Shown: piece by piece, positions 8,620-21,784 of the stretch
Numbering within the stretch: the first letter of the stretch is position 1
Layout of the letters: each line of letters begins with the position of its first letter
From: an uncultured Porphyromonadaceae bacterium
Lineage (GTDB): Bacteria > Bacteroidota > Bacteroidia > Bacteroidales > Muribaculaceae
Reading direction: 5' to 3'
Length of the DNA stretch: 64,000 nucleotides
Assembly: GCA_947175645.1 (NCBI GenBank)
Contig: CAMWNP010000007.1
Location: forward strand, 1 to 64,000
The notes under the pieces: generated by a model
The model's database searches: none
Seen by the model: the letters and a program-made list of their open reading frames with translations, nothing else
What the model was told of the DNA's origin: nothing
Program-made: the position numbers and the translations under genes

Positions 8620-9052
8620 AAGTGATGAAAAGTTCATGCGGATTGCTCTGAACGAAGCACGCGAGGCTTTCCGCAACGACGAAGTGCCGGTGGGCGCGGT
8701 GATAGTTGCTGACGGACGCGTGATAGGGCGCGGGCATAATCTCACCGAAACCCTCGGAGATGTCACGGCTCATGCCGAGATGATGGCTATAACGGCCGCT
8801 GCAGAAACCTTAGGGGGCAAATATCTGAGCGACTGCACCCTCTATGTCACCGTGGAGCCGTGCCTGATGTGTTCCGGTGCCATAGGCTGGAGCCAGTTAC
8901 GGAGAATAGTCTACGGTGCCTCCGATCCCAAACGCGGCTACCACACCTACACGTCACGTTCACCGTTTCATCCGTCGTCCGAGGTTACGGGTGGCGTCCT
9001 CGCTGATGAATGCAGTCAACTGATGAAAGAGTTTTTCTCCTCAAAACGATAA
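8603..9052 (+). CDS. tadA: tRNA-specific adenosine-34 deaminase
   Basis: A 149-residue zinc deaminase that converts A34 to inosine in tRNA-Arg(ACG). The CDA-fold signature is complete: HAE at residues 57-59 (zinc His57 and proton-shuttle Glu59) and PCLMC at 86-90 (zinc Cys87 and Cys90). An alternative ATG at 8609 is possible. The start overlaps the end of rnz, and metH begins 3 bp after its stop, so rnz-tadA-metH look like one transcript. Guanine or cytosine deaminase is the alternative within the fold, but the spacing and C-terminal MKEFFSSKR helix fit TadA best. Confidence 0.92.
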   Translation: MNMPAESDEKFMRIALNEAREAFRNDEVPVGAVIVADGRVIGRGHNLTETLGDVTAHAEMMAITAAAETLGGKYLSDCTLYVTVEPCLMCSGAIGWSQLRRIVYGASDPKRGYHTYTSRSPFHPSSEVTGGVLADECSQLMKEFFSSKR

Positions 9053-9054
9053 AA

Positions 9055-12000
9055 ATGACACTTCCTGTTTCCGATAGATCCAAGGCGCTTAAAGAGGCGC
9101 TGACACAACGTATACTTGTTCTTGACGGTGCCATGGGCACCATGATCCAGAAGCGCGGTCTGAGCGAGGCTGACTTCAATCCCGGTTGCCGGTGCTGCCA
9201 CGACCACCCGGCGGAGCATCAGGAAGTGAGCCTTAAAGGGTGTAACGACCTGCTTGTACTCAGCCGTCCGGATGTCATCCGTGAAATCCACAGGGAATAT
9301 CTGGAAGCGGGTGCGGATATCATAGAAACAGACAGTTTCAATGCAAATGCACTGTCCCTTGCCGAATACGGGATGAGCCACCGCGCCGGAGAGATTAACC
9401 GTGTGGCCGCTGAGGTGGCATGTGGCGCACGTGATGAATATCTGAAAGCAACCGGACGTGAATGTTGGGTAGGAGGAAGCGTGGGTCCAACATCCAAATC
9501 CCTGACAATGGCCCTGAATCTGGGGGATGACATTGACTTCGCCACCATGCATCGGACCTACGTGGAGCAGTGCCGCGGATTGATTCTCGGAGGCGTTGAC
9601 CTGTTGATAATTGAAACCTGCTTCGACATCCTGAACGCCAAGGCGGCGCTTACGGCCGCACGTGATGCCATGGAGATGGAGGGGCGTGAAGTGCCCGTGA
9701 TTGTATCAGCCACTGTTGACAGCAACGGACGTACTCTCTCCGGGATGACCTTGGGTGGATTCGCAGCCACGGTGGGATGTTTCGGTCCGCTGGCGTTGGG
9801 AATGAATTGTGGATTCGGGGCCGATGAGGCAGCCCGGCTGACCGGTGCCCTTGAAGAGGCTCCATTTGCATTGGCTCTATATCCGAATGCAGGACTTCCT
9901 AATGAATTAGGGGAGTATGACCAGACCCCGGAAGAGTTTATCTGCGCTCTGAAGCCGTTGATTGACAACGGTCGGCTGAATATTGCCGGCGGATGCTGCG
10001 GCACCACCCCGGAACATATATCCCTCCTGGCCGGAGAGGTAAGAGGTAAGAGACCACGATCAGTCCCCTCGGCAGTCCCGGGGTTGCTGCTGAGCGGTCT
10101 GGAGCCGCTTGCCCTGACCGGAGAAGAGCAGTTTATTGACATAGGGGAGCGATGTAATGTTGCGGGCAGCCGCAAGTTCCTGCGCCTGATAAATGAAGGG
10201 AACTACAGCGAGGCACTTCAGATTGCCGCATCGCAGATCGCTGCCGGTGCATCGGTCATCGATGTCAACATGGACGACGGGATGCTTGACACAAAGGAGT
10301 GCATGAAGCACTTCCTTCAACTTGCGGCCACAGATCCCGCAGTAGCCAGGGTTCCGGTGATGATCGACTCCTCGGACTTCGATGTTGTCCGCACTGCCAT
10401 GAATGTGATTCAGGGGCGTCCGGTGGTAAATTCCATCTCGCTCAAAGAGGGTGAGGAAAAGTTCCGCGAACATGCGCGGGAGATACACCGGATGGGAGGC
10501 GCCATGGTTGTGATGGCTTTTGATGAAAAGGGTCAGGCTGTGACTCCGGAACGCCGGATAGAAGTTTGCCGCCGGTCCTACGATATTCTCACCACGAAAG
10601 AGGGTATACCTCCGGGTGACATAATTTTTGACCCGAACATACTCGCCGTAGCCACAGGAATAGCCGAACATGACAGTTATGCGGCGGATTTTCTGGAAGC
10701 CACGGAATGGATAACCGGCAATCTGCCAGGGAGCAACGTCAGCGGAGGACTCAGCAACCTTTCATTCTCGTTCCGCGGAAATGACCCTGTCAGGAAGGCG
10801 ATGCACTCCATTTTTATCGACATGGCCCGTAAGGCCGGAATGAGGCTTGCCATTGTCAACCCCGCCGGCCTGCAGGATGTGGACTCAATCCCCGATGACC
10901 TGCGCGGCAGTATCACCGATGTGCTCATCAACAGCGACCCCGACGCAAAGGAGCGCCTTATAGCCGTGGCTCAGAAATATCTACCCCCCAAAAAAGATAA
11001 GCCGGCCGCTAACAAACAGACTGAGGAACTATCTGTGGATGAAGCACTTGTCAATGCAGTTGTGAACGGAAACACAACCGGAGTCACTGATCTGCTGACA
11101 CGGGCAATGGAGAGCGGGTTGTCGCCTATAGAGATTATCGACAACATACTGATGAAGGGTATGGACACCGTAGGACAACGTTTCGGAGCCGGTGAGATTT
11201 TCCTTCCCCAGGTAGTGAAATCTGCAGGAATCATGAAGGAGTGCGTGACATTCCTTACCCCTTTCATAGAGCAGTCACGCAAAGGATGCGACACATCACG
11301 CTCCCACCGCATGGTACTTGCCACAGTGAAGGGTGATGTGCATGACATAGGAAAGAACATTGTCGCCGTTGTGATGCGGTGTAACGGCTTCGAGGTAATA
11401 GACCTGGGAGTGATGGTTGCCCCGCAGGCCATAATTGATGCAGCGGTTCAGGCGAAAGCGGACTGCATAGGTGTCAGCGGGTTGATAACCCCGTCGCTGA
11501 ATGAAATGGTGACCCTGGCACGGATGATGCAGGAGCAAGGTCTGGAGATTCCGCTGTTTGTTGGGGGTGCGACAACATCGGCTCTGCACACGGCTGTCAA
11601 GATTGCTCCAAATTATATGGGGGGTGTGATTCACACCACCGATGCGGCAGATCTGGCTTCAAAGGCAAGATTGTTCATTGATCCGCAATGCAGGGAGAAA
11701 CATCTTGCCGAACTGCGCGAAATTCAGGAAACCCTGCGCACCGAACATGCATCGGAAGCCTCACGGATGAGCCCGGAACAGGCACGCGGACTCCGCCCTG
11801 ACTATCCTGTGGCACTACCCTGCTCAACCCCCGACTTCGGGCTGCATATCCAGCCGGTCTATATCTCTGACCTCATTAACCTTATCAACTGGAAGCAGTT
11901 CCTTGCCGCATGGGGAATAAAGCCTACTGACATGAATGATCCGCAGGCGGAGGCTCTGATTGCCGATGCGTCGGACATGCTTGATGAATGGGTGGAAAAA

Positions 12001-12558
12001 GGGATATCCATAATAGTGGAGATGGCTGTGTGCGAGGCCTGCTCAGACAGCACGGACAACATCCATGTGTTCAGCAACGGGAAAGAGTCTGTAACTTTCC
12101 ATGCGCCCCGTCAGAGGAGACTGATGGATAAGGCTGAGCATACCCTCTCGCTTGCCGACTATCTGCCGCAGGGGGCACATGGTGTGAAAGCCCCGGTGAT
12201 ACTCTTTGCCGTCACCGCTACCTCCACCCTTCGCAAGAAACTTGTGCGTGACCCGCAGAGTTACAACGGTATGCTTGCCGACCTGCTGCTGCACCGCCTG
12301 GTTGAAGCAGCCACCCAATATATCCACTCCCGTATGGCTTATCAACTCTCAGGCTACTCAGCCGACACTAATTCCATCCGTCCCGCCATAGGTTATCCGT
12401 CGCTGCCGGATCAGATGCTTACGCACGTTTTTGACAAACTGTTGCATTACAAGAAAATAGGCGTGAAACTGACCGAAAACGGGGCACTCGACCCCGCTGC
12501 CACTACAACAGGTGTAATACTGTTTCATCCCAAAGCACGCTACTTCTCAGTGAAATAA
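9055..12558 (+). CDS. metH: Cobalamin-dependent methionine synthase
   Basis: An 1,167-residue modular methyltransferase that makes methionine from homocysteine with methyl-tetrahydrofolate and B12. Domains in order are: homocysteine binding (about 10-325, zinc cysteines Cys252, Cys314 and Cys315 in GGCCGT), pterin binding (about 355-620), B12 cap (about 640-735), B12 binding (about 740-875, DVHDIG at 761-766 with cobalt-ligand His763) and AdoMet reactivation domain (about 900-1165). All modules are present. The start at 9055 (MTLPVSDRS) is preferred to the ATG at 9010, which lies inside tadA. No cobalamin riboswitch is expected here because the gene starts 3 bp after tadA. A strong terminator follows. 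Confidence 0.96.
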   Translation: MTLPVSDRSKALKEALTQRILVLDGAMGTMIQKRGLSEADFNPGCRCCHDHPAEHQEVSLKGCNDLLVLSRPDVIREIHREYLEAGADIIETDSFNANALSLAEYGMSHRAGEINRVAAEVACGARDEYLKATGRECWVGGSVGPTSKSLTMALNLGDDIDFATMHRTYVEQCRGLILGGVDLLIIETCFDILNAKAALTAARDAMEMEGREVPVIVSATVDSNGRTLSGMTLGGFAATVGCFGPLALGMNCGFGADEAARLTGALEEAPFALALYPNAGLPNELGEYDQTPEEFICALKPLIDNGRLNIAGGCCGTTPEHISLLAGEVRGKRPRSVPSAVPGLLLSGLEPLALTGEEQFIDIGERCNVAGSRKFLRLINEGNYSEALQIAASQIAAGASVIDVNMDDGMLDTKECMKHFLQLAATDPAVARVPVMIDSSDFDVVRTAMNVIQGRPVVNSISLKEGEEKFREHAREIHRMGGAMVVMAFDEKGQAVTPERRIEVCRRSYDILTTKEGIPPGDIIFDPNILAVATGIAEHDSYAADFLEATEWITGNLPGSNVSGGLSNLSFSFRGNDPVRKAMHSIFIDMARKAGMRLAIVNPAGLQDVDSIPDDLRGSITDVLINSDPDAKERLIAVAQKYLPPKKDKPAANKQTEELSVDEALVNAVVNGNTTGVTDLLTRAMESGLSPIEIIDNILMKGMDTVGQRFGAGEIFLPQVVKSAGIMKECVTFLTPFIEQSRKGCDTSRSHRMVLATVKGDVHDIGKNIVAVVMRCNGFEVIDLGVMVAPQAIIDAAVQAKADCIGVSGLITPSLNEMVTLARMMQEQGLEIPLFVGGATTSALHTAVKIAPNYMGGVIHTTDAADLASKARLFIDPQCREKHLAELREIQETLRTEHASEASRMSPEQARGLRPDYPVALPCSTPDFGLHIQPVYISDLINLINWKQFLAAWGIKPTDMNDPQAEALIADASDMLDEWVEKGISIIVEMAVCEACSDSTDNIHVFSNGKESVTFHAPRQRRLMDKAEHTLSLADYLPQGAHGVKAPVILFAVTATSTLRKKLVRDPQSYNGMLADLLLHRLVEAATQYIHSRMAYQLSGYSADTNSIRPAIGYPSLPDQMLTHVFDKLLHYKKIGVKLTENGALDPAATTTGVILFHPKARYFSVK

Positions 12559-12665: not shown

Positions 12666-15600
12666 TTACTTAATCAGATGTTTTTCACCGTTGATGATGT
12701 AGACACCGGCAGGGAGTTTCTTCAGGTCGCCTGTGGTGGCGTTCTTCAGAATCCGGGTGCCGTTCAGGTCATATACATTGGCGGTTTCGCCGTCGGCGAG
12801 GATGGCTTCTACTCCGGTGGGGATATCAGGAATGGTAGGCTCGGGGCTGATTGCCTTGATGCTGATACCGTTCAGGTGAGAGTCGTTCACCTTGAGGGTG
12901 TAGACTCCGTTCTCATCCGGTGAAACATTTTCATCATTGATGGTAACAACCGGGCTGTCAGCATCATTTTCTTCACCGGTCTCTTCATCATCGGCCATGG
13001 TGCGGATTGCATTGAATGCAAATGTCTGCTGGGCAGCCTGAGGAGTCAGGGTGAAGGAGATTTCGGTGCCGGGTAGAACCTCATGGATATCGTTGGGGTT
13101 AATTGCCACATCCTGCTGGCGGTCATGCCATACCTTGAAGTTGTAGCCACGGAGATCGACGGTGTATTCCACACTGATCTTATACTGTTCATCAGAATAG
13201 ATCTTGACGATACTCTTGGCGGGGAGATCCTCGGGGAACTGGTATTTTCCGTCAACCTCTTCAAGAAGTTCATTGTTGACATATACCTTGGCTTTCTCCT
13301 TAGCAGAGGTAGTAACGGCAAGGGGAAGGTCAGCCTTGTGGATCATCACTGTCTGATAGCCGGGAGTCAGTGCTACGTTCTTCACAACTGATTTGCCTTC
13401 GCTGAGCACCACGTGGCTGATCTGATTGTTTTCAACCAGGTCCTCAACGTAAACCAGAAGTTCAACATCGCGGTTATATTCACCCATCACCAGAGTCAGT
13501 TTGCTTTCGCTCTTGATGTTGGTGAGTTCACCTGTCACGGCGTTGAACTGTGCCTGACCGGCGTCGTCGATAACGTTGGTGATCACGTAGCCGTCCAGTT
13601 CGGTGAACAGTTGCAGTGACTTGGTGCTGGCGGGGAACTGAAGTTCGGAAGTGGCGTCATACATCGGGTAAGAGAATCCGTTACCTGTTACGCGTACTGC
13701 CTGCCATGCATCTTCTGAAACTACTGTCACGTTCAGTTTTTCAACTTTCACGGCGATGGTGACATCGGAGTTACCTGTCTGGATGAGATATTTGCCATCG
13801 GTTGCCTCGACGCGTTCGCCGTCAACCTCAACGAAGAGGGGTTCGCCGTTATCAGTCTTGGCCTCAAGTTCAATATATGTGCTGGGGAGTACTTCACGCA
13901 TACCGGCTTCCGTAACCTCCGCCGAGTAGTCCTCGATTGCCTTGAATGTTATACCGGGCTCAACGAGATAGAACAGAGTGATGTTCTTCACGCCGCCGAC
14001 TTCAGGCGCATCGGGATCATCAGGATCGGTTGTGCCGGTTGCAGTTGGGTCAGGAGCGTAAATCTTGATAACAGGAGCGGTATCGCCGGTGAGGGCCTCA
14101 ACAGGGAAGATGTAACCACCATGTTCCTCGCTGTATTCCAGACGCTGACCGTTGACATAGACTGCAGGCATGGTTTCAGGACGGGCGGGATCAAATCCGC
14201 TGTCTTCGCCAAGGCTACCTTCATCCTCGCCGTCGCCTGAGGTCACTTCAGCCAGACGGTAGATCAAGGGAAGATCCTCATCGCTGAACTTGACAGTCTG
14301 GAATCCTTCAGTGAGCGACTCGGAAGTTTCAATAACCTTGCCGTTACCGAGCACGATAGTTCCGGGGAGGTCTTCATCGTCAACGAAGATCTTCACTTCG
14401 CTTTCACGAACCACCCGGTTGGTGGTAAGGGTGACGGTGGCGGTTGCCAGTCCGGAGAGAACGCCTGAGTCCTTATCGAATGTCATGCCATCGGCTGATG
14501 AACTGACTGTCAGATATGATTCAGGTTCAGAAGTTGTCACTTTCAGTGACTTCACGGAAGTAGGAAGCGATATTGAGCCATCGGTGAGATCAAACTTCTT
14601 GCCATTTTCATCTGTTACAGTTATTGTGGCGAGATCAGTTCCTGAAGCAGGGCTAAATGTCAGATTATTCATTACAGGCTGAATATCAAAGAGGATGTCG
14701 GTGACACCGAGTGAAAGAGTCACTCCTGCAGCGGGAACCGCTTTAAACTCGCTTGCCGTTCCACCGGTTGTGGTTGAGTAGCGCACGGTGTAGTCAGTAG
14801 CGGAACCTTTATTGACAACTTTAACAACAGAAGACACAGGATAGGGTTTGTTGAACGCATCATCGGCGATGTTCTCAGAGACAACTGTTCCGTTAACCTC
14901 CAGAGCAAGATTTAGATAGGTGTTACTGTCACCGCTGGCACCTGTCTGAGTTGAAACGTTTACGGATGAAGTCTGATTTGTTGCCTTACGCACAATAACA
15001 AGCGTAGATTTGTCAGGCACATCATCGTAGGGGAAGGCATACGCACCGTTCACATACTCGATTTTCTCATTGTTGAGGAATACGTCAGGCATCATGGTAG
15101 TGCCATTGTTGGTGTATTCCACATCCTTCAATTTGAAGGGAAGGTCGTAAAGTGATGAGAACTTGACATTAACGGAAGTGAAGGTTGATGCATTGACATT
15201 GGCATAATAAACACCTTGTGTGGCACCGTTACCAAGTTCCAACATGGCGTTGGTAGAATTGAACTTGACGTTATTACCGCTGGCTTTCGAGCCCTGGAAC
15301 TTAACCGTCATAGTCCTGTCTGTTACAACATTTTCATACTCGATATTTAGATCCATTCCTGCCTCCAGACCTGTCAGTTTTCCTGTCCTGTGGTCATATC
15401 CAAGTACTTTTCCGGAATTTTTATCGGTAACAGTCTTTATGACATAAGAAGGATCCACGTTGGTCTGGGAGTAAAATCCTAACTTGATAGTTACATCCTC
15501 CGGATCGGACACCAATGCTTCGTAAGCAGCAGAACGACCGTTTATAATGGCCGTAGGACCATCCATATCACCAATCTTACCACCTGAGAATGTGAAATAA

Positions 15601-18600
15601 CAACCGTCGAAGTCCACATCGATTTTGCAAGTTGTGTTGTAACCGTAATTGTTCCAGATTTTCAGGTCTCTGCCGTTAATTATATATTCACCCTTTTCAT
15701 TAGGTTCAATTTGAATGGGGTCAGTATTGGTGATGTTGACAGTAAGGCTTTTTATGGAAAATCCTTTTTCCGCCGGATAAATTTTTACCGAACTGCATTG
15801 ATAGATCATGGCAGAAAGATCACTCCAATGGTTCTCCGGTTCCACCAGTACAGGTTCGGTACCATCAACCTCGTAATAATAAGGCGCTCCACCCGGGTTA
15901 AAGTTGATGGTCTCGTTGCGATACTGAACATTGGAATCGTAAGATATGTAGAGATCCAAAGTATAAGACCCGTCGGCGGGTTTATTTATGGTGTACTCTT
16001 CATCATTTCCTATATAATTAAAGTAGTAACCATAATCTGATTTTTCTGCGACCACCACAGAACTATATTGGCAGGGCAGGCTTGATGCATTAAATATGGT
16101 GAGGGGGAATTCTGATTCATCCAAGTTAAATGTTTCCTGGAAATCCGGACTAGATGTATTGTTGAAATTGCTCGCATCGGAACTGTAGTCACGATAATAA
16201 TTATTATCACCTATGCGCAACAATGACTTGATTTTATACGGCATGGAACCGCCGCCCATGGAGCCGCCGCCGTAACTTTCTCCGTTTTTCACACAGATCA
16301 GATTAGTAGCCTGGTCACATACACCTCCATAATTATCCTCATATAATCCGGATTTAGGGTTATATGAATAGTAATTATCATTTGGGGCTACATGGATGTT
16401 TACATAATAAGGCTTGGGATTCTTTTTAGTGGTTATGTTGACGGTCGCCCCTGAGCGGAAAGTGACAGTCTCGTTAGCCACGCTATAAGAGAATCCGGCG
16501 GTTACACCTGATGCAGATGCCGTTGAGATGGTGTAGATCTTGCTAGGATCATACACTTTCAGCGTATAAGCGGTTGTGGTTGACGCACCGCTTACATAGG
16601 GGAGCATCATGGTGTATGTTTGTGAATTGGGGGAGTAGATCTGCCCGGTTGTCGTTTCCTGAATCTGGAACTGTTTCCAGTTTGAGTCAAGCGCAACGGT
16701 CACAATAGCCTTTGGACGCAGGGTCAGGTCGCAGGCTCCCTTGACAGTATAGGTAAACTTGTTTCCGGTCTGCAGAATGTAAGAGTTGTTGTTTGAGCCT
16801 GTCTGAAGCATAAGATTGGCTGCATCAGAGGAAGTGGTTGGAGTAATAACAACCTGTGAGCCGGGAAGAACATCAACGGGGATGCCGGATGTTATGGTTT
16901 TGCCATCAATAGTGATGGTACAGTTTTTGCCTGACTGGTTGGTAACCTTGACCGAGACGGGGTTTATCTGATTGTCGAACAGGCGGATGTCCTGACCGGC
17001 AGCGGGTTTCTCAGCAAAGTAGTATCCTTCTGCGTCAGGTTCAACTTTTTCACCGTTGACATAAACACAGCCTGCTGAACTTGCCAGCGAGACGGGGAAG
17101 TCGTTGGGATGCACCTTGATTGTGTTCTTACCGAAATCAAGGTAAACCCACTCGCGGTTCGCCGGATTCTTTGGGCTTAGGATAAGGGCAAGTGAACCAC
17201 CCGCAGCGGAGCCCACCGTTACCGTTAAATCCTGAGTACGTTCGTAAGGAACACAGGTGACCTCGTATGTAGCATCCATACCTTTGTGATCCAGTGTAAC
17301 CTCACCGTTGACGGCTTTGTAGATTTTTTCACCGGATTTCACCTGTGTGATCTCGAAGCCGTAGCCGGGGGAGAAAGTAAGGGGAAACTCTGTGCTGTAA
17401 CCATTTTTTGAAATTAAAGTTGAAGGTCCTGACAGAGGATAGTAATATCCGTCGCTTGTGACCTCAAAGTGATTGTATGCATCAGAAACGATGGTGATTC
17501 GGGGAGTATTGTTTACCAGAGCCGATAAGATGATTTCCTGAGGTGAAGCGACATCGCCTTCAATCATCACATTTGCAGATGTGCCGATACTGGTGCCGTT
17601 GAGTGTGCGCGATTTAACCTCAAATCTGCCGCTGACCTGCGTTGCGAGGTAGTAAGATACAGTGGCACCGTTTTTCACGTTGAAGGATTTACCACCTTCC
17701 CAAGCAGAGCGGTCAAGAACGGTTCCATCAACTCTGACAGAAGTTATTTTCTCCTGCAGTTTTGCATCGACAGTCTCGTTGCCTCCGTTCTGAACCACCT
17801 TGATGGATACAGGCATTTCAAACTCAGGCCATTGGGTGGTGACCACAACGTTGTTATCGGAAGAGCCTTTGGGTAGGGAAACGGTGTAGTAAGTGGTGTA
17901 GTCGTAGGTGTTACCTGTGTTGAAAACCATACCGGTTTTGCGTTCCAGGGGAGTGTTGTTCAAGGTAGCCTTGAAGGGAGTTCCATTACCAACGGTAGCG
18001 ACGGTCCAATTCAACTCGGTTTTGGGGTCGTACTTGATTGTCAGTGTGTTTCCGTTGAATTCGTCAGCCGAATACTTGTAGTAGTAACCACCGACATAGT
18101 TGAGCAGACGGATTTTTGAGGGATCGTCGCAGGTGAAAGTCAGTGTGCCTGACTTGACGTTATCTACCATATCCCAGTTCACTTCCACGACATCGCCGGG
18201 GCTTACGGCAGATTTTCTGATGGAGGCAGACTGCGGAGCGTATGACAGGTTGGTGCCTTTTGTTTGGTTAACAATCGACGTGAAAGCGGTGGTGGTGTAA
18301 GTCGCCAGATAGAACGACACAGGGCTTTCAGAAGCCGGAACATAGTAATAGAACTTGTTTGCGGCGGCATCCCAGATTTTGGGGGCATTCAGGTTCTGCT
18401 GCGTGGAGGTACTGTAATAGATACCAACGCCTGAAGCACCGGGATTAATGCCGGGCCCGCTTACTGAGAAGATGTAGGCATCGTCGGGGACTCCTACCGC
18501 TGAGGGGGATTGCGCGTAACTATCTAACCCACAGATACTTACCCCCCCCCCATTTGAGAAAGACAACAGTGCAGCACATCAGCACCGCCATCAATCTTCT

Positions 18601-18615
18601 GATTGAATTTCTCAT
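12666..18615 (-). CDS. Giant secreted repeat protein with sorting domain; frame broken at a G10 tract (phase-variable candidate)
   Basis: The 1,966-codon body (12666 to about 18566) has no good start or signal peptide of its own in frame. The ATG at 18615, about 70 nt below a strong promoter, encodes a signal peptide (MRNSIRRLMAVLMCC...) but runs into ten consecutive G residues and stops after 31 codons at 18520. With 9 or 12 G the signal peptide joins the body and gives 1,982 or 1,983 residues. The body is a chain of degenerate beta-rich modules with repeated phrases such as VYVNGExVE..GxYxFP and E/VLPGTxIxxT. It ends in a type IX-like sorting domain (NVYDLNGTRIL ... PAGVYIINGEKHLIK). It is probably exported and displayed on the cell surface. 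The ligand is unknown and I recognise no enzyme domain. Confidence 0.85.
18542..18551 (-). repeat. G10 homopolymer tract in the signal-peptide region
   Basis: Ten C residues on the plus strand are ten G on the coding strand. They fall at codons 22-25 of the signal-peptide frame (LKWGG...). Ten G gives a premature stop, while nine or twelve restore the 1,982-1,983 residue frame. Runs of this kind are known hot spots for slipped-strand mispairing. Confidence 0.8.
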
Positions 18616-18692
18616 AATAGAAAGTTTAAATGATTAATTTAAGGATAGTTTATAATTTAGTTATTTTTATTCTGCATTGTCCGCTTAATATG

Positions 18693-18724
18693 CAAAATTA
18701 AGAAATAATAGGATTATTTCCAAA
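18693..18724 (-). promoter_or_regulatory. Bacteroides-type promoter of the giant secreted protein
   Basis: Read on the minus strand, TTTG (18724-18721), a 20-bp spacer and TAATTTTG (18700-18693) match the consensus. The predicted start near 18686 leaves a leader of about 70 nt before the ATG at 18615. This argues that 18615, not a codon inside the long frame, is the real start. Confidence 0.75.
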
Positions 18725-18763
18725 AGAACCGGTATTAAAAAAGTTATTTGCAATAGTTAATCC

Positions 18764-19837
18764 TCAATTATTGCGGTGACGGGGGTTGGAGCAAACCTCA
18801 TCATAAATGGCCTGGAGCCGATCAACTGTGTGAGTGAGTGAGAACCGGCTGTTGATAAGGCTGAAAGAGTTTTCGGACAGTTGTTGACGCAGGTGGCGGT
18901 CAGTGAGCATCCGGCGGAGTGCGTCAGTGAGTTGGGGGGTGTTTCCGGGTTCTATGAGCAGACCGGTGACCCCATCTTCGATAACCTCCGGAATGGAAGC
19001 CACGCGGGTGGATATGTTTGGTATGCCGCGGGCCATAGTTTCAAGAATGGTCATGGGAAGACCTTCGTTATATGAAGGGAGTACGTTGAGAACCGTACGG
19101 CTGAGAATCTGTTCCTTGAGTTCGCCGGCGGTCCATCCTATGTGACCTATTCTGTGGGATATCCCCATTTCCCCTACTCTTTGGCGCACCAGGTCCACTT
19201 CACCGTCGCCACACAGATTGAACCGTATATCCTCAGGAAGTTCGTCATCGAGTGCTTTTATGGCGTCAAGCAGTAGGTATACACCTTTCCGCTCACCGAG
19301 CCGCCCAAGCAGAAGCACTTCCTTGCGGTCAGGGTCGTAGGGGTTCTCCGGGAATGTAGCCACCGCGTTATAGAGTGCTGCGACGCGTGCATGTGGAGCG
19401 CGTGAGGTTATCATAGGTTCCAGCCGTCGGCTGAGCACAATGTTGAGGTCGGCTGTTTCGAGCACGGAGTTGATCCGGCGTTTCATGCCCGGAGAGCAAC
19501 TGTCATACCAGGGTTCGAACTCGGCACCGTGATGATGAAGCACCACGGGTATGTTCATGGCATGAAGCATTTTGACCAACAGTCCTTTACGGATGAAACT
19601 GCCACGCTCGGCCACATGGAGGTGCGCCACGTCGATTTTCCGTGCGAGCATGAGCACGCGTGTCAATCCTTTCATGAACTGCCATATAAGTTTGGCCTTA
19701 CCCCCGTTGCAGTGGGTAGGGACAAAATAGATATGGTAGTCGTCGGGCCACCGTGCCACATTAAGATAATTGTTGACCACGGTGACCATCCCTCCTTTGT
19801 AGGAGAGGTCGGAGCAACACATCAGAATATTGGTCAT
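18764..19837 (-). CDS. Glycosyltransferase family 4
   Basis: A 357-residue GT-B fold glycosyltransferase of the GT4 type, which moves a sugar from a nucleotide donor onto a cell-surface glycan precursor in the cytosol. The N-terminal half carries LSYKGGMVTVVNNYL and HHHGAEFEPWYD. The C-terminal Rossmann half has the donor site LGRLGERKG (about 205) and PSYNEGLPMTILETMA (about 277-292), with the EGLP...E motif of the family. The start at 19837 (MTNILMCCSD) replaces an extended in-frame ATG at 19930 that would run through promoter-like DNA. No other polysaccharide gene is near, so the acceptor cannot be inferred. Confidence 0.88.
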   Translation of the reverse strand: MTNILMCCSDLSYKGGMVTVVNNYLNVARWPDDYHIYFVPTHCNGGKAKLIWQFMKGLTRVLMLARKIDVAHLHVAERGSFIRKGLLVKMLHAMNIPVVLHHHGAEFEPWYDSCSPGMKRRINSVLETADLNIVLSRRLEPMITSRAPHARVAALYNAVATFPENPYDPDRKEVLLLGRLGERKGVYLLLDAIKALDDELPEDIRFNLCGDGEVDLVRQRVGEMGISHRIGHIGWTAGELKEQILSRTVLNVLPSYNEGLPMTILETMARGIPNISTRVASIPEVIEDGVTGLLIEPGNTPQLTDALRRMLTDRHLRQQLSENSFSLINSRFSLTHTVDRLQAIYDEVCSNPRHRNN

Positions 19838-19905
19838 AGTAGAATTGCTAATGGTAATGCAAAGATATAAAAAAGTGTGGTAAATTAATGAATTTGAGGT
19901 AAAAA

Positions 19906-19937
19906 TTTGGAAGTGTAAAAAATAAAGCATACCTTTG
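19906..19937 (+). promoter_or_regulatory. Promoter of tRNA-Ala
   Basis: TTTG at 19906-19909, a 20-bp spacer and TACCTTTG at 19930-19937. The tRNA begins 13 bp downstream. Confidence 0.75.
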
Positions 19938-20064: not shown

Positions 20065-20206
20065 CTAAAATCCGGTTCCCCAATATTTGTTAATACTGAG
20101 GCGGTCAAAGTATTATTCGTAATTTTGTGTTTGAATATCAATACTTCAATCGCTATCCATCAGATGAGCGTGTCGGAGATCAGTGACAACGATAAAATTT
20201 ACTGAA

Positions 20207-21784
20207 ATGAAAAAATCATTTACACTCTTATTCTGCTGTATTATGGGAATTGTCAGTGTATGTGCTGATAATGTTATTATAAAAACGCCAGGTTATTTCA
20301 AGAATCCGGTCCGTGACGGACATCAGTTATTTCCGGACAGTCTTGTATTTCCTCGTGATGCGGAGTCAATTCATATCCCTGATATAGGAATGATAGGTCG
20401 TTTTGAGGATTACGGGTTCACGAATCTAAAGAAGGTTTCGTTCGGCGATATCGATTATGTGCCGGGCGGACTGTTCTACAAAAATTCCACAATAGAAGAG
20501 ATTGAATTTGACGGCTTTACAGGTCATTTTGATTGCACCCTGGTATCCAATTGTCCGAATCTGCGGAAAATTGTGTTTCATGGTCCGGTTTCCAGCACCG
20601 GAGGCCCAGGTTTTGCCTATAATTGTCCACAACTTGACAGCGTGATTTTTGAGGGTGCGGTGGTGGAATTCGGTTTGGGGAAGTTTCCTGATGAATTATG
20701 TCCCCGCTTTGAGAATTATACGAACCGCGGTGCTTTTCTGTCAGTATATGACGACAGCCTTACCGCTAAAACAACGATAGACCAACTGCGTGGCAACATC
20801 CGCTTTATATATGATCTGGAGAGAATTGCCGAATGGCAGGCTGAAGTTCTGACCGCATCCGACCCCGGGTGGATGAGAGCCTACCAATATAGGAATGCCA
20901 AGATACTTCTGCCGGTTCTCGAACAGTTAAACAGCGATAAATCGGTTGTCTTGAAAAATGCCATGGAATATGCATGGAATTTAGGCGACGAAGTTAAAAC
21001 CGACCTTGAGATTCTGAAAGATTCGCCTGAATATAAACGTGACAGTGTCCGGAAACCTGAATTTGTCTATGCGTCGCCATCAGATTCGCTATTAAGCCTG
21101 TCACGTGAAAGATTCAATCTCGACAGCATTGCCGGGAACGGCGACGAGATAAGCCGAATAAAGAATCTGCTTTACTGGGTTCATGACAACATACCGCATG
21201 ACGGTGGGAATGGTCTGGCACCGGGAGCACGAAATTTGAGAAATACTTACGACAGTTCAAAGCGTGACAGTTGCGGTTACAACTGCCGTGCATTAGCCAT
21301 CTGCCTGACAGAAGCGTTGCTTGCCGAAGGGATACCCGCCCGATACATAACGTGTGAATCAAAGAGGTGGGACACGGACAACGACTGCCATGTAATCTGT
21401 GTGGCATGGAGCGAAACGCTTGGCAAATGGATATGGGTTGACCCTACTTTCGCGGCATATATCACTGACGAGAACGGCCTGCTGCTCCATCCTGGAGAAG
21501 TGCGATACCGGTTACAGAACGATCTGCCGTTAATCCTTAATGAGGATTCAAACTGGAATAATCGCTCTAAGGAAGAGAAGGAGTATTATCTCGATGAATA
21601 TATGTCAAAAAATCTATATATAATGTCTGCCAACACATTCAATCAAGCAGAGCCTGAAGGAGTGACAACACACTATACGGGTAAAGTGGCGGCCATTGTT
21701 CCGGACGGTAGCAATTATACAAATGCAGATTTCATCACAACTGATGACGAATGGTTTTGGCAAGCACCTGACATCATAAGGTGA
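20207..21784 (+). CDS. Secreted protein with LRR-like N-terminus and transglutaminase-like domain
   Basis: 525 residues. The start at 20207 (MKKSFTLLFCC) gives a clean signal peptide with predicted cleavage after VCA near residue 22; an ATG at 20183 would spoil it. Residues about 55-160 resemble BspA-type leucine-rich repeats (LKKVSFGD, CPNLRKIVF, CPQLDSVIFEG). Residues about 300-420 form a transglutaminase-like cysteine-protease fold with a plausible triad: Cys360 (GYNCRALAICL), His395 (DCHVICVAW) and Asp412 (WVDPTF). The protein is probably periplasmic or surface exposed and acts on proteins or peptides. Whether it cross-links or hydrolyses is not visible. It is monocistronic and is followed by repeat copy B. 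Confidence 0.82.
   Translation: MKKSFTLLFCCIMGIVSVCADNVIIKTPGYFKNPVRDGHQLFPDSLVFPRDAESIHIPDIGMIGRFEDYGFTNLKKVSFGDIDYVPGGLFYKNSTIEEIEFDGFTGHFDCTLVSNCPNLRKIVFHGPVSSTGGPGFAYNCPQLDSVIFEGAVVEFGLGKFPDELCPRFENYTNRGAFLSVYDDSLTAKTTIDQLRGNIRFIYDLERIAEWQAEVLTASDPGWMRAYQYRNAKILLPVLEQLNSDKSVVLKNAMEYAWNLGDEVKTDLEILKDSPEYKRDSVRKPEFVYASPSDSLLSLSRERFNLDSIAGNGDEISRIKNLLYWVHDNIPHDGGNGLAPGARNLRNTYDSSKRDSCGYNCRALAICLTEALLAEGIPARYITCESKRWDTDNDCHVICVAWSETLGKWIWVDPTFAAYITDENGLLLHPGEVRYRLQNDLPLILNEDSNWNNRSKEEKEYYLDEYMSKNLYIMSANTFNQAEPEGVTTHYTGKVAAIVPDGSNYTNADFITTDDEWFWQAPDIIR

Follow-up and report, generated by a model that had tools for sequence, protein, structure and literature searches.

A poly-G run in the leader of a giant predicted surface protein: a probable slipped-strand switch in a Bacteroidales bacterium

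The locus and its interrupted reading frame

The DNA analysed here, the window in what follows, is a stretch of 64,000 nucleotides from contig C7 of a genome of 3.17 Mb in 139 contigs. The gene of interest lies on its minus strand, downstream of a GT4 glycosyltransferase gene of the same orientation (18764-19930), while the methionine synthase gene metH occupies the opposite strand beyond its 3' end (9010-12558). Past the glycosyltransferase gene, the minus strand carries a promoter-like motif of Bacteroidales type, TTTG-N20-TAATTTTG (18693..18724), located 77 nt 5' of an ATG at 18615. This motif, which we take to be the Bacteroidales promoter consensus, has seven occurrences on the two strands of the whole window, equivalent to 0.016 per 300 nt on a single strand. 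It is present with the same N20 spacing 98 nt and 132 nt 5' of the ATG of two homologues discussed below (G001:C63 and G001:C53, respectively), and absent from the 300 nt 5' of the ATG in six other homologues examined (G210, G342, G409, G403, G401 and G135).

The ATG opens a short leader frame (18520..18615, minus strand) with a positively charged start and a hydrophobic stretch that has, as judged by eye, the character of a signal peptide. This frame enters a homopolymer of ten G residues (18542..18551, minus strand) and ends at a stop codon (18520-18522) after 31 codons. The body of the gene, an open reading frame of 1,966 codons without a single internal stop (12666..18566, minus strand), is one base off the frame of the leader. 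The initial annotation had described this same arrangement, with the deposited copy in the OFF phase, and re-reading the sequence bears it out; the 1,983 codons that it gave for the frame joined by nine G are correct by arithmetic once the stop codon is counted. Because the run lies between the ATG and a body that is read in another frame, a change in its length would switch the frame. As for an invertible promoter, this candidate was rejected, with no inverted repeat of at least 10 found within 18300-19000. Elsewhere in the window, a Transglutaminase-core protein with a sub-threshold match to BspA-type leucine-rich repeats is encoded on the plus strand (20183-21784).

The predicted protein

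Structure models depict the body as a multi-domain, all-beta protein. AlphaFold, run with six-row alignments, yields strings of beta-strands with a mean pLDDT of 83.4 for residues 12-560 and of 77.8 for residues 1150-1850. The best Foldseek matches include streptococcal pilins and adhesins, a Bacillus TIE protein and a Vps13 domain, with E values around 1e-7 and TM-scores of at most 0.16 for the model. As a consequence, the predicted fold is claimed at the level of the class only, that of a string of beta-sandwiches. No Pfam family scores above its cut-off on the body, and the body profile has no match among PDB sequences.

At the C-terminus, residues 1908-1959 (12690..12845, minus strand) resemble the type A sorting domain of the type IX secretion system (T9SS), with an E value of 3.5e-4 for TIGR04183 and a score of 20.5 bits, below the curated cut-off of 23 that would place the protein among the type A cargo. 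The same genome codes for the SprA translocon (2,716.7 bits), and this, together with the weak match of the tail, suggests that the giant protein is probably exported by T9SS. Taking the leader, the tail and the predicted all-beta fold together, we infer a surface or secreted protein of adhesin-like nature.

A G-run against its genomic background

How unusual is such a run in this genome? Among the 41 open reading frames of the window taken as genes, it is the sole run of at least seven G or C, and the other run in the window, of eight, is intergenic (47360). Yet a plain G8 pattern has four matches in the window, overlaps included, against a mean of 1.76 in shuffled sequences, and 16 of 100 shuffles reach four, so that a G-run by itself proves little. 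Across 26 window open reading frames, GGG makes up 98 of the 1,134 glycine codons (8.6%), the run's own GGG codons being counted in, and two consecutive GGG codons at a given Gly-Gly pair have an expectation of 0.75%. It is the place of the run and its recurrence in homologues, not its mere presence, that raise it above chance. In the whole genome there are 18 distinct runs of at least nine, and only that of the window sits at the junction between a leader and a long body.

Several of the other runs deserve mention in their own right. Two are found in a polysaccharide gene cluster just past the window: a G11 (C7:66674-66684) flanked by a flippase-type gene (Polysacc_synt) and a gene for a UDP-GlcNAc 2-epimerase, and a G9 (C7:71265-71273) at the 3' end of an open reading frame for a hexapeptide acyltransferase. 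Seven G10-G11 runs share one near-identical repeated context on contigs C38, C60, C77 and C97, which may be contamination or represent a repeat family at which the assembly breaks up; eight of the 18 runs are no more than about 105 bases from a contig end.

The run in related giant genes

The body used alone as a query retrieved full-length relatives in two genomes, G001, which belongs to the same genus as the window genome, and G022, with partial ones elsewhere. A profile was then made of six proteins (identities to the window protein of 51, 43, 27, 29 and 23%) and searched against four overlapping samples, comprising 398 genomes from the family, 393 from the order, 111 from the genus to which G342 belongs and 27 from that of G210. 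In the search of the 393 order genomes, at an E value of 1e-30, the window's own genome was the sole match. In all, 11 giant proteins were recovered, and the ten with a readable leader, the window included, all belong to the window's own family, probably Muribaculaceae; these ten are counted below, the eleventh (G135:C105) being excluded because its start is missing from the contig. An early scan of contigs with a single protein as the query had found no relative, and a scan with the six-protein alignment gave five loci, all of them found before. A leader cassette common to other genes of the genus was considered and rejected: in nine genomes, a query of 201 leader bases, which failed to report the known run-bearing copy G001:C53, matched only its own site, G001:C63 and a 33-base piece in G003.

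The initial annotation had suggested looking for the tract in orthologues, and it is there: an unbroken run of seven to ten G occupies the same site in eight of the ten giant homologues, that is, in seven of nine besides the window. Two of these eight copies are in frame, G001:C63 with G8 and G403:C27 with G10. Six are out of frame: the window with G10, G001:C53, G022:C61 and G342:C80 with G9, G409:C12 with G8 and G210:C33 with G7. The two remaining homologues, where glycine codons break the run (GGAGGCGGGG in G401:C25 and GGCGGT in G135:C24), are both in frame. Two of eight fits the one third expected of a freely slipping run (the probability of two or fewer is 0.47). For G022, the contig starts 88 bases before the run and contains no ATG, so that its phase was called from the hydrophobic frame; without it, two copies are in frame and five out (n = 7). 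Tract length and phase thus vary among related copies, with lengths of 7, 8, 9 and 10, the variation being that between species and between paralogues, and both states are present in the G001 assembly alone, with C63 in frame and C53 out. Runs such as the G10 of the window and the G7-G10 of its relatives reach the length needed for high slippage.

All these homologues come from assemblies, some of them metagenome-assembled, and run lengths in such sequences may contain errors. Homopolymers are indeed error-prone, which raises the question whether the run is in frame in the actual genome and the apparent switch stems from a fault in sequencing or assembly. This would demand six wrong lengths among the eight run-bearing copies of seven genomes, an event with a probability of 4e-7 at an assumed error of 5% per copy, albeit for copies that are not independent. 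The same assembly also has a G10 close to the C-terminal end of ftsA, a 474-codon frame identified as FtsA by Pfam (L023:6565-6574, i.e. C3:104565-104574), and this run stays in frame. Errors would also not account for the upkeep of the run at one position in several genera. That eight of ten homologues have the run speaks against an isolated assembly error and favours a hypermutable tract that is maintained. With the run recurring in related genes of several genera, a mere sequencing glitch appears unlikely, and we hold the wider explanation by artefact to be very improbable.

Maintenance of the run and integrity of the body

If the run were simply inherited, it should have decayed. It persists in proteins with 23-51% identity to that of the window (five homologues measured), and synonymous changes have reached saturation in comparisons of the window with G022, G210 and G001:C53, a divergence at which shared ancestry alone would have eroded it. 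Short relatives, which have only parts of the body in common with the giant proteins, are different in this respect: none of 16 has a run of six or more G around its start, and G-runs of seven are absent from the 7 kb of a seventeenth (G282, L077).

It might still be argued that the run marks the spot where a one-way frameshift killed the gene, since the sequenced copy cannot give the full protein from its ATG. Against this, none of the ten bodies has an internal stop over the available sequence (four homologues, G001:C63, G135, G342 and G401, are truncated by a contig end). In particular, the six out-of-frame bodies are all open, over 1,851 to 2,917 codons of available sequence; the same site is broken in six copies and no other break is seen. 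Comparison with G001:C63, the closest relative, points in the same direction. DNA identity with the window is 80-82% in the leader, about 42-63% over most of the body and 85-95% in the last 900 aligned bases, and in the last two blocks, the measurable part, dN/dS is 0.06-0.10, an indication of purifying selection there. Conserved ends around a divergent middle are usual for diversifying antigens. Decay of the gene seems to us an extremely remote prospect.

A more subtle alternative leaves the DNA unchanged. G-runs are slippage sites, and either programmed frameshifting or RNA polymerase slippage at the run could produce the full-length protein from out-of-frame copies. A passage on slippage in one article concerns poly-A/T (PMC3711429). 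The best argument for this explanation is that the offset has one and the same sense in five of the six out-of-frame copies, an outcome that a fixed frameshift or slippage during transcription would also produce. However, the sixth, G001:C53, is offset the opposite way, and a split of five to one is no significant departure from random phases (two-sided binomial, about 0.22). The best argument against it lies in the in-frame copies, two with the run and two without, which need no shift at all. No RNA element that would stimulate frameshifting was seen: strong structure is lacking 3' of the window run (z +1.5), and Rfam gives two sub-threshold matches there and none at a gathering score. A frameshift or transcriptional slippage is, in our opinion, very unlikely.

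Phase variation by slipped-strand mispairing

There remains the reading of the G-run as a contingency locus, where slipped-strand events drive phase variation of a giant predicted surface protein. We consider it very probably correct, as the initial annotation had proposed, the leader, the tract, the two frames and the OFF phase being now joined by the same tract in most of the giant homologues. In this mechanism, DNA polymerase would slip on the run, and single G residues would be gained or lost. One length class of three would fuse leader and body into a single frame, leading to synthesis and export of the giant protein. With a run of either other class, ribosomes starting at the leader ATG would meet a stop within about ten codons of the run, and no product would be exported. 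The sequenced copy would represent an OFF class. The leader, the run, the frames, the promoter-like motif, the open bodies and the recurrence of the run with varied lengths and phases are all observed features of these sequences; slippage as their cause and its reversibility are what we infer from them. If the product has the adhesin-like surface role suggested above, changes of phase may help the cell against host antibodies or phages, or in changing niches.

This would matter for gut Bacteroidales, where most descriptions of phase variation have concerned DNA inversion. If true, a homopolymer switch maintained in several genera would be a second and much cheaper system beside inversion. It would be invisible to tools that seek inversions, and easily filtered out as sequencing error. 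It would also explain why such giant genes appear frameshifted and go unannotated in assembled genomes.

G-runs in other genes of the family

The family might use G-runs as a general alphabet of phase variation beside DNA inversion, with translational switches in export signals (of giant beta-rich, SusC/RagA, lipoprotein-like and T9SS-like proteins) and transcriptional switches where promoters of exported proteins have the run some 18-21 bases 5' of their -7 box. This is a tentative idea, to which we give somewhat less than even chances. A pattern combining a charged start with G8 was matched in 45 of 396 family genomes, against 21 for the reversed pattern used as a control. Twelve matches, none of them a giant relative, were selected for their hydrophobic leader; L185, which has no long frame, and L183, with a G16 at a contig end, were excluded. 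Nine of the twelve are in frame and three out, and one (L203) probably lies within a longer open reading frame. A rough chance expectation is three to nine such leaders (37 per 393 kb scaled to about 1 Gb, with one to three sense G8 runs per Mb), so that their number proves nothing alone and is a lead only. Two of the selected proteins, from different genera (G031 and G050), are 55% identical over 490 residues, with a run in both leaders.

The proteins themselves are varied. Runs of G8-G10 occur in hydrophobic leaders of other exported proteins at L192-L202 (G106, G191, G031, G053, G050, G133, G237, G097 and G163). One is a SusC/RagA receptor (L193 in G191; TIGR04056, 647 bits), another a lipoprotein-like frame of 1,130 codons (L192 in G106) and a third a protein with a T9SS-like tail (L199), all three out of frame; T9SS-tailed or tail-like proteins are also present among the selected leaders.

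Some matches outside leaders look like a second, promoter-side class of G-runs. The motif TAnnTTTG follows a run of at least G8 by 18-21 bases in six of 35 non-leader matches, against 0.31% of positions, a background taken over whole loci rather than intergenic DNA alone (P = 1e-9, or 7e-8 with the near-identical pair L171/L175 counted once). These intergenic G8-G10 runs are at L165 (G183), L168 (G130), L171/L175 (G095/G161), L182 (G346) and L206 (G226). The next open reading frame has a hydrophobic start at L165, L168, L171, L175 and L182, and several of the runs have TTAAC before them and TAA after. They look like candidate transcriptional switches.

Comparison with known systems

The mechanism is already known; the protein family, and such a use of it in Bacteroidales, were not found in print in the open-access articles of PMC, where we found no account of the locus or of poly-G leader switches in the window's bacterial family. 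Within the same order, the invertible promoters of Bacteroides fragilis and other Bacteroidales and the invertase-controlled SusC/SusD and capsule loci are likewise devoted to phase variation of the envelope. These systems invert DNA between inverted repeats, whereas here the length of a homopolymer changes, a contrast consistent with the relevant passages of a 2025 review, where Bacteroides is cited for inversion and Neisseria, Haemophilus, Campylobacter, Helicobacter, Treponema and Gardnerella for slippage at repeats (PMC11868660). A passage of another article mentions a C-run of four in an acetyltransferase region of B. fragilis as a possible source of variation (PMC3090145).

With T9SS type A cargo the predicted protein has in common a leader, a very long beta-rich body, a C-terminus that resembles a sorting domain and SprA in the genome; it differs in that the match of its tail is below the curated cut-off and its body has no Pfam domain above cut-off.

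Another close parallel is with the poly-G and poly-C contingency loci of Neisseria, Campylobacter and Helicobacter. The present case, a putative switch, is set apart from these loci by its phylum, by an unrelated, giant beta-rich protein and by a run placed inside the codons of the predicted signal peptide. It has the same design, with a homopolymer in the 5' coding region, a frame that depends on its length and mixed phases among relatives, and its product is predicted to lie at the cell surface.
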